Below, piece by piece: positions 49,943-61,635 of a DNA stretch of 64,000 nucleotides; position 1 is the stretch's first letter; every line of letters starts with the position of its first letter. The DNA lies in assembly GCA_963969365.1 (NCBI GenBank), contig OZ017749.1:4015822-4079821 (forward strand), given 5' to 3'. Below the pieces are notes generated by a model. That model was not told the origin of the DNA. It was given only the letters and a program-made list of their open reading frames with translations, and made no database searches. Position numbers and translations under genes: made by a program. The DNA comes from Asterochloris sp. CNOR1 (lineage: Eukaryota; Chlorophyta; Trebouxiophyceae; Trebouxiales; Trebouxiaceae).

Positions 49943-52930
49943 TCACCAGGCATGCTCTGCCTCCTCAATGGCGGGGTGGAAGATCAGCATGAAGACGCCA
50001 AAAACCACCTGCAGGGTCACAAATGCAATGTCATTCAGGGCTGATGCTCAGGGCTGATCACACAGCCTATGCCTGCTGATCACCTCACAAAGGCCGGAGT
50101 CACTGCTGACGGGGGTCAAGAGCTGACAACATGGTGGCTGCTCAGCCGACCTGAAGCCTGACTTGAATGATGACAGGCTTGAGCTCACCTTGGCAGATAC
50201 ATCGCAGATGCAGTACCAGACCACCTGCGTCGCAGAAGGTCCAGATCAATAGAGGGTGCAAACATTGAGGCATGAATTGACTGACAGCCCCTGAGGGTGC
50301 CTGCAAACCCAAGCGTGCACACCAATCTGCACAAGGTGGAGAGGCGCCAAGAAGTCACCTCAGCATCGTGGGAGAGCAGGTTTGCACCATCAGCCAGGCC
50401 CCAGATGAGAGGATAAAAGGACCAGCTGCAGGAGAGGCGCAACAGAGTCAGCCATGCAAATTGAATCATTTGCAGATGCATTGGGCAGCACATGGTTTCA
50501 CATAGCATTGCACAGGCAGCGCTCAGGTGCCTGTTGCGCTAAGCAAACGCTGAGGTGCAGCCAGGTTTCTGACGCAGTGTCCAGAGCTGAAACCCTACAG
50601 GACGGTCAAGCTGCCGGAAGCCACACAGGCAGCTCCAGGGCTCACAAGAACATGATCCAGCCCATGAGCAGGAGGTAGATCTTGCCCGTGCCGCGCTCCA
50701 CGGCGCCAGCCCTGCAGCAGTGCAATACGGGGGAGTGACGCCTGGATTCCATTTGCAGTATGGCGAGTGCCATGCACATCAGGCCAAGAGACAGCTGGCA
50801 GAGCACGCAACTCTGGCAACATGTCATCCCGCCCAAGCGCACCTGGCGGGAAACAGCATTACTCCAAAGACCACGAACATGGCGATGCAGCCCAACGTGT
50901 ACCTGCGACAGCATACCACAACTGAGAGCAGGCGGCACAGCTCTGATGCCTTACCACCTGCCGAGAAAGGTGACGGTCAAAGCTGGTGCAAGAGGTGCCA
51001 TGCAAAGCAGAAGCAAAATCATGGCCACATGCATCTGCAGTAGACCTTTGATGGCAGGCACGTCAAATCAGGGTTGCTTCCTCAGGTGTCAGGCAGGCCA
51101 AAGGCCATGAGCTCACCAGCCCCATTTGGTTTGCCGACTGGAGAGTGCGCCAAGCAGGCCTGTCAGAATCATGAAGGCGTCGGCGGCGCAGGTGGCTGCC
51201 ATGTAGGAGCGGTGCATGCCGGACAGCAGCAGCAGGTCCAGCAGCAGCATCGGTGTGCTGATGATCCAGTCTGCAGCCAGCAGAAGTTGGCAGTTGGGAT
51301 TCAGGCTAAGGCTGCTGCATGCCCAGTAGCACAGCAGCTCATGCAGCAGCACAGAGATGGCTGATGAGCTGGACAGCAGAGCGGCCATGGCAACAAGTCT
51401 GCTCCTTGAACAGGTGAGAGTCAACGAATCGTTAGCTTGGGAGCGCCTGCATACAGACATCCAAGTAAGGTCGAGACATCAGCAGCTTGCGGTCGACAGC
51501 CTGAGGTGCCCTTCAAAGGGAGCTGCAGTATGTTCAGGCAGAGAATGGACCTCAGACTCTGTGACACCGACCGCTCGTTGCTGGATGTAGCCTGCAGCTG
51601 TCTTAGCCGTCTCACCTGCTGTCGCAGGCTGCATTCAGCAACAAGCGGACAGTATCACAGGGCCTCACATCATGTGGCAGCCAGCATCAGCGCTCCTCAA
51701 GGAAGATCTCGGCACCCAGTCTTGTTTCCGGCAGGCCGTCAGCGCAGGGGCACTTTCATTAGACTTCAGCAGCATAGGGCACCAGGAGGCAGGCTCCGAG
51801 CAGTAGCCCTTGTTGGCAACGCTGCTGCCCTTGACAGCCAGTAATGGTGATGCTCACCGGCATAGTGTGCCCATGAGACTTGGCGCAGAGGGGCGCCCGT
51901 AGGGTTTCCAGTGCGTGGCTCCTCAATGCTGCCGCCCCCAGTAGACATCCCAAAATACGCTACCATGGCCACTGTCACCACTCCAGAGGTCAAGTCTGCA
52001 GCTCAGCAGCACAAGAAAGAGTTGTGGCGGCAGGTTTGCTGCGTTGCCCAGCTGGACTGCAGGCTGCACTGCTGAATAATTCCGGCACGCCCACAGCTGT
52101 TGTTGCCGCTCCCCAGGCCTGGCTCTGCAGCACAGCAACTGGCTGACTGTTTACTAAAGGCCATATCAGACAGTTGACATCCTTGCTGCTGCAGTCCTGT
52201 CTACTTGCAGATCACAAAGGAGCAGCCACTGAGCGCAGCAGGGCTCGCGCTGCAATGCCAAGAAATGCCGCAGGCATGCACCCTGCAGGCTACTACAGGG
52301 GGACAATATTCATCAAGTAAATACTATGTGGGCAGGGTCAAATACCAGCCGATAGCGGACAAGATAGGGGACAGGTGCCCTTCACAGCACTGAGAGAGTT
52401 TGCAAGAAGTAACAGGGGCAGGCACGCCATGTGGAGGGTTCACTCATGACAGTGTCCAACTGCAGACTTAAGCAAAACAGGGAGCAGCCACTGCAAATCC
52501 CAAAGCCTGAACCTAGACTATGCCTGGAACGCAGAGCTGCCAGGGGACATGCAAAGCCCAGCTATTGCTTGAGCCCAGCCAGCGAGAATTGTTAGGGCAC
52601 CATGCAAAAACAGCGTTGCATGTGCAGCTCACAGTAGTGTAACTTCTCTTGCGTCTTCACTGAAAACGTCCATGCCCAGAAGACGATTGCACTGGCAAGG
52701 AAGAGCCCAAACGTTACCTGCGCAGGCCAACATGGCAATGATTCAGCAGGCCTGAGTGACAGGGTGGGCCTGCCTTCATGGCAACCATGTCATCAGAGCA
52801 TGAAAGGCAGTGCAGGCTGTTTGGGAGCCAACGAGGGGATGGCCTTGGCGACGCTTACCCAATGAGCTACCTCTGCCACGCTGTTGTGTCCTGCATGGCT
52901 AGATGCACCCGAGGGCGCAAGGTCGCTCAT
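49943..52930 (-). CDS. Microbial (type I) rhodopsin, light-driven ion-transporter type
   Basis: A seven-helix retinal protein of 247 residues from nine in-phase exons: 52930-52859, 52717-52633, 51995-51858, 51270-51117, 50902-50843, 50711-50646, 50425-50359, 50224-50189 and 50008-49943. It starts MSDLAPSGASSHAGHNSVAE. Helix A is VTFGLFLASAIVFWAWTFSV. Helix C reads WAHYADWIISTPMLLLDLLL, with D99 and D110 at the bacteriorhodopsin D85 and D96 positions and S103 at T89. Helix F is FWSFYPLIWGLADGANLLS. Helix G is WYCICDVSAKVVFGVF, with D222 (D212) and the Schiff-base lysine K226 (K216). E214 aligns with E204. The D-S-D pattern points to an outward proton pump. However, H96 replaces the nearly invariant R82, so pumping may be altered or leaky. 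Reading straight on gives a TGA after AEHAW; an alternative splice at 49946 could extend the C-terminus. Confidence 0.93.
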
Positions 52931-61374: not shown

Positions 61375-61635
61375 TGCTACAGGAAACTGTGACCACACCA
61401 AGCCTGCTGACACAGCCTGAGCCATGCTGCACTGGCTTCCCAGAGCAGGGGCTGGCCAAGTATGGTGTTGTGAGCTCCCCAAGCCTGTTGACATAGCCTG
61501 AGCCATGCTGCACTGGCTCTGCAGAGCTTGGGCTGGTCCAGAATGGTGCTGTGACCACACCAAGCCTGCTGACACAGCCTGAGCCATGCTGCGCTGGCTC
61601 TGCAGAGCAGGGGCTGGTCCACCACGCTACTGTGA
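61375..61635. repeat. 81-bp tandem repeat, about three copies
   Basis: Units start near 61391, 61472 and 61553. Each contains CCAAGCCTG(C/T)TGACA(C/T)AGCC, GAGCCATGCTGC(A/G)CTGGCT and GAGC(A/T)(G/T)GGGCTGG(C/T)C. The unit length is divisible by three, so all minus-strand frames read as 27-residue repeats, but no gene context supports coding. Confidence 0.9.

Follow-up and report, generated by a model that had tools for sequence, protein, structure and literature searches.

In the green-algal outward proton pump CsR, residues Y57 and R83 have been called a proton shuttle that blocks passive flux, and the mutant R83Q pumps only weakly, with pumping that persists against about -100 mV, and passes a passive inward current under load (PMC4657025). 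The exchange R83H does not occur in that paper. Exchange of this arginine for histidine is described for four proteins, which belong to two parts of the family, and 4/4 are described as channels: FcR1 R118H has a bidirectional, proton-specific, light-gated conductance (PMC10627834), and ApOps1, ApOps2 and ApOps3 with the corresponding change (R112H) each become a light-gated proton channel (PMC8591190). The same paper mentions corresponding CsR mutants with smaller channel currents and cites CsR Y14E as a proton-channel mutant.

Loss of the arginine is also found in nature. In 2022, 399 natural Alt-rhodopsins lacking it were reported, of which 214 are H-type, defined by histidine at position 82 of bacteriorhodopsin (BR) and a lysine in helix 7; they arose many times and include one giant-virus cluster (PMC9601134). 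H-type proteins of sure eukaryotic origin are mainly from cryptophytes, and the largest H-type cluster is giant-viral. Among the papers listed by a literature search, no green-algal H-type CsR-like protein was named.

The window (the whole 64 kb stretch of DNA analysed here, GC 56.8%) forms the terminal 64 kb of contig C4, one of 21 contigs in a genome of 56.38 Mb, and the rhodopsin gene lies ∼12 kb from the contig end. Minus-strand spliced dynamic-programming alignment to the Coccomyxa pump CsR (PDB 6gyh) gave a nine-exon gene at 52930-49943 (see the table), by which the exon structure and the motif WAHYADW of the sequence-only reading were recovered independently. Joined from ATG 52930 to stop 49943, the exons amount to 744 nt and encode 247 aa with 0 internal stops; the introns, 131 to 637 bases long, are GT..AG in 8/8 cases, and GC is 71.4% at codon position 3 versus 56.2% in introns. 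Moreover, the model is supported by two of the eight introns (residue 53, phase 1; residue 215, phase 0), which coincide in position and phase with introns modelled in each of the paralogs L006 and L007. The alignment to CsR covers the seven-helix domain end to end, and profile PF01036 matches with 132.8 bits (cut-off 24.6 bits; E 1.6e-38; protein residues 20-234 aligned to positions 4-218 of the 224 in the profile). With this match and the retinal lysine K226 in DVSAK, the predicted protein is by sequence a type-1 microbial rhodopsin. Around the gene, 45 open frames were listed, and 10 long ones among them had 0 matches in Pfam. Near the contig end there is a tandem array (window 61387-61621, 81-base unit, 2.9 copies), and no TTTAGGG telomere repeat was found in the final 2 kb of the contig.

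Table. Coordinates in the window of the rhodopsin gene, its exons and the codon of H96.
Feature	Position	Strand	Evidence
Rhodopsin gene from start through stop codon (247 aa, nine exons)	49943..52930	-	spliced alignment, stop-free translation, PF01036
Exon 1: start codon and N-terminus, with H23 (CAT, 52864-52862) at the CsR Tyr14 site	52859..52930	-	spliced alignment; donor GTAAGC
Exon 2: helix A	52633..52717	-	spliced alignment, translation
Exon 3: helix B, then helix C as far as WAHYA; T55 (BR T46), Y66 (BR Y57)	51858..51995	-	spliced alignment
Codon CAC, H96, at the BR R82 / CsR R83 position	51865..51867	-	translation of joined exons
Exon 4: remaining helix C (D99, S103, D110) and helix D	51117..51270	-	spliced alignment
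Exon 5: helix E	50843..50902	-	spliced alignment, translation
Exon 6: E-F loop, beginning of helix F	50646..50711	-	spliced alignment, translation
Exon 7: helix F (W193, Y196), D204, E214 (BR E194, E204)	50359..50425	-	spliced alignment
Exon 8: D222, K226 (retinal lysine)	50189..50224	-	spliced alignment, translation
Exon 9: last part of helix G, a short tail and the stop	49943..50008	-	spliced alignment, translation

At the site of BR R82 and CsR R83, an arginine that in CsR closes off the extracellular half of the pore, the window protein has H96, encoded by CAC at 51867-51865 on the minus strand; the codon itself was as previously noted, and its earlier placement at 51864-51866 was one base off. 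An exon junction restoring arginine had been named as the observation that would overturn the histidine, and the possible junctions were enumerated: exons 3 and 4 can be joined in 106 ways that use GT/GC..AG sites, stay in frame and meet no stop, and 0/106 gave an arginine-bearing motif; such alternative splicing was rejected. Reading off the translated model also upheld the earlier list of K226, D99, D222, D110 and E214 as kept, with S103 for threonine. In BR numbering, D99, D110, D222, K226, E214, Y66 and T55 correspond to D85, D96, D212, K216, E204, Y57 and T46 and are unchanged, S103 replaces T89, and D204 replaces E194, as in Leptosphaeria rhodopsin. A second histidine, H23, aligns with Tyr14 of CsR, which reportedly (Fudim et al. 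2019) hydrogen-bonds Arg83. The position is Tyr in L006, Gln in Acetabularia rhodopsin I, Leu in Leptosphaeria rhodopsin and mostly Leu, Phe or a gap in bacterial rows; due to this variation among relatives, H23 by itself is little informative.

How unusual is the histidine? A prokaryotic sample of 34 loci was assembled, with 3 from a scan of GTDB genomes with the profile of alignment A1 (which gave these 3 loci only), 1 from the same genomes and the rest from 398 and 301 genomes, so that it represents two phyla and not the whole family. Leaving out three duplicates, L063 (a fragment) and L047 (below the profile cut), 29 distinct proteins were scored: arginine stands at the BR R82 place in 29/29, and the S103 place is Thr in 28/29 and Asp in 1/29. 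The excluded L047 is rhodopsin-like; Pro stands where Arg82 would be (motif YPYAGW) and, by eye, there is no retinal lysine. In viral contigs, a profile scan for relatives with the histidine motif gave 18 pattern matches and 0 relatives, the DNA pattern for WAHYxDW gave 13 stretches, 0/13 with a rhodopsin open frame by the A1 profile, and a longer pattern had 0 matches. These data agree with the sequence-only reading that the arginine is nearly invariant as far as the prokaryotes go, but the 399 Alt-rhodopsins, 214 of them with histidine, require the wording to be softened, and the rarity it implied for histidine was overstated, because H-type rhodopsins are already a published class (PMC9601134). 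With histidine at BR 82, the helix-7 lysine and seven helices as judged from the alignment to CsR, the window protein is by its translation an H-type Alt-rhodopsin. The substitution is rare, yet already a named kind: ordinary in kind, notable in place.

The same genome offers relatives for comparison. With PF01036, three other rhodopsin genes were found (L006, L007 and L008), and a protein search of the genome with E up to 1 gave no further copy. The helix-C motifs of the three are WARYIDW, YARYIDW and NRYIQW, with arginine in 3/3. L006 (G000:C10:2502000-2508500, minus strand) has 56% identity to CsR and is likely, from its sequence, the counterpart of the CsR pump in this genome and a better one than the window gene. 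Its helix-C arginine codon is split by an intron between CG and G, and the nearby intron of the window gene lies inside the D99 codon. On the contig of the window gene, L007 (G000:C4:2958500-2966000, plus strand; first exon of the model of low confidence) is a CsR/LR-like rhodopsin with arginine and DTD-type residues. L008 (G000:C10:1948000-1956500, minus strand) has Gln at the D85 place, and histidine-kinase exons follow its rhodopsin part (one exon piece scores 32 bits for HisKA, against a cut-off of 26.9); it is a predicted histidine-kinase rhodopsin of the same alga.

The histidine is not the only departure. In an alignment of the window protein with six relatives (L006, L007, CsR, Leptosphaeria rhodopsin and two Acetabularia rhodopsins), 171 columns are gap-free, and where the other six agree the window protein has 8 private changes: A68G, R96H, I98A, T103S, L106M, L192F, V199I and L221C. 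The changed residues S103, M106 and C221 lie around the retinal or adjoin D222. The counts in the six relatives are 0, 1, 0, 2, 2 and 3, but CsR with L006 and the two Acetabularia proteins are sister pairs, which depresses the counts of those four, so that a fair comparison is with L007 (1) and Leptosphaeria rhodopsin (2), which are isolated. The tree places the window protein together with L006, CsR and both Acetabularia proteins (support 92/83, below the starred threshold), on a terminal branch of 1.14, against 1.05 for Leptosphaeria rhodopsin (LmR) and 0.78 for L007. Divergence alone is thus insufficient for eight changes, because these equally isolated proteins have only 2 and 1. As read from the alignment, the changes fit altered function and relaxed selection alike.

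In our reading, to which we give a probability of about one half, the main activity of this protein would be passive proton flow in light, i.e. it would be either a proton channel gated by light or a pump that leaks strongly. This is the simplest reading because the arginine-to-histidine mutants of FcR1 and ApOps1-3, and CsR R83Q, conduct passively, and we infer that the native protein, with its other changes, would behave like those mutants. Light would isomerise the retinal and the Schiff base proton would be passed to D99, as in a pump. With H96, perhaps together with H23, instead of the arginine barrier, the water path on the extracellular side would stay unclosed, and protons are therefore proposed to follow their gradient, which would take them inward when the outside pH is low or the voltage negative. 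Some outward pumping at low load would be expected to remain, and in the cell the protein would complement the arginine-bearing paralogs, which look like pumps. More tentatively, and with rather more doubt than belief, we suggest that it is a native proton-selective light-gated channel derived from a CsR-type pump, in which the gate of Arg83 and Tyr14 has become a pH-sensitive outer gate of two histidines, beside arginine-bearing pump paralogs. There are points against the channel reading. Y66, at the place of BR Y57, is retained, and loss of its equivalent also opens CsR; the private changes would be expected of a decaying gene too; and the published histidine mutants are otherwise unchanged pumps, so that the eight core differences seen in the alignment could compensate here. 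The sequence-only reading had offered a leaky pump, a pH-gated proton channel or a sensor, and the first two have direct experimental precedents in FcR1 R118H, the ApOps1-3 mutants and CsR R83Q, so that as a whole it is partly supported.

The main rival, which we consider unlikely, is an outward proton pump that releases its protons late or weakly, in which H96 would take up and give off a proton in place of the arginine switch and E214 and D204 would form the release group. The full set of pump residues (D99, D110, T55, D222, K226 and E214) speaks for it, and BR R82H is said (Imasheva et al. 1999) to release protons still, only late. The pumping of CsR R83Q against about -100 mV points the same way, while the description of 4/4 arginine-to-histidine mutants (FcR1 and ApOps1-3) as channels stands against it. 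Judged as a CsR/BR-type pump, the window protein has the acceptor, donor and second counterion (D99, D110 and D222) and lacks the helix-C arginine.

We consider it improbable that the gene is losing function, with the histidine as one of several relaxed-selection changes in a young subtelomeric or dispensable paralog. The 8 columns out of 171 at which the window protein alone departs, versus 0-3 in six relatives, the long end branch and the closeness to the end of C4 would suit such decay. Nevertheless, all nine exons are in frame with canonical splice sites and no stop, the lysine and all carboxylates are kept, and codon position 3 has GC of the coding kind. Moreover, a functional shift would explain the eight changes, which divergence alone does not, given only 2 and 1 in the equally isolated LmR and L007.

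It is very unlikely that the protein only signals and transports nothing, as a photosensor or a slow photochromic protein. Such a role could draw on the shifted core, with eight private changes including S103, M106 and C221. The protein stops 21 residues past K226 and an effector domain is absent, unlike in the kinase-linked L008, so the sensor proposal of the sequence-only reading is left without support; a histidine-kinase rhodopsin was rejected for the same early stop codon and the lack of a kinase domain. The donor D110 and its Thr partner, a pair that speeds reprotonation in pumps, are retained. Finally, a one-base sequence error hiding a true arginine is very improbable: CGC to CAC needs a single transition, at a CpG, but the departure extends beyond this codon (e.g. 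T103S, I98A, L106M and L221C), and 21 long contigs for 56.4 Mb suggest a long-read assembly.

If passive conduction is true, one genome would hold both a pump (L006) and a proton channel derived from a pump (the window gene), and the question of which minimal changes turn one into the other, so far asked with mutants, could be addressed in natural paralogs. Proton-selective light-gated channels are wanted as tools for the control of pH by light. If the protein is still a pump, it would reveal compensating residues that replace the arginine gate, which is equally useful. What is new is an H-type member in a green-algal CsR-like gene, the class itself being already known.

A search of solved structures gave 143 distinct matches; the best 60 are led by CsR (6gyh; E 7.3e-46), followed by Leptosphaeria rhodopsin (7bmh; E 9.9e-41) and Acetabularia rhodopsin I (5awz; E 4.9e-34). 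A green-algal channelrhodopsin was rejected, these best 60 of 143 being pumps and pump mutants by name (foremost CsR, LR and Acetabularia rhodopsins), and the passive conductance predicted here is for protons alone. A xenorhodopsin was rejected too, since it needs Trp or Phe at BR 82 (PMC9601134), where the window protein has histidine. By homology, the window protein is a predicted retinal-binding seven-helix protein of the algal/fungal bacteriorhodopsin-like (CsR-type) group.

With CsR it shares 40% identity over 217 columns, the counterions, the donor, the lysine and the Y57 and T46 partners. Unlike CsR, it has H96 for R83, H23 for Y14, S103 for Thr and D204 for E193, its B-C loop side is two residues longer, and there are the other private core changes. 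To Leptosphaeria rhodopsin LR (7bmh) it has 37% identity, with the GLADGA stretch and the D/E release pair common to both, but LR keeps the arginine and has a much longer B-C loop. The published H-type Alt-rhodopsins have the same histidine at BR 82 and helix-7 lysine; those of sure eukaryotic origin are mainly cryptophyte and the largest cluster is giant-viral, whereas the window protein belongs to the green-algal/fungal CsR-like clade. The viral heliorhodopsin V2HeR3 is a natural light-gated proton channel and offers native proton conduction of the kind predicted here; unlike the window protein, it is a heliorhodopsin of reversed topology, and its mechanism is not homologous. The closest likeness in the change itself is to FcR1 R118H and the ApOps1-3 mutants, where pumps that share the fold carry the identical exchange at the equivalent site; those are laboratory mutants, whereas the histidine of the window protein is native and stands alongside other changes.
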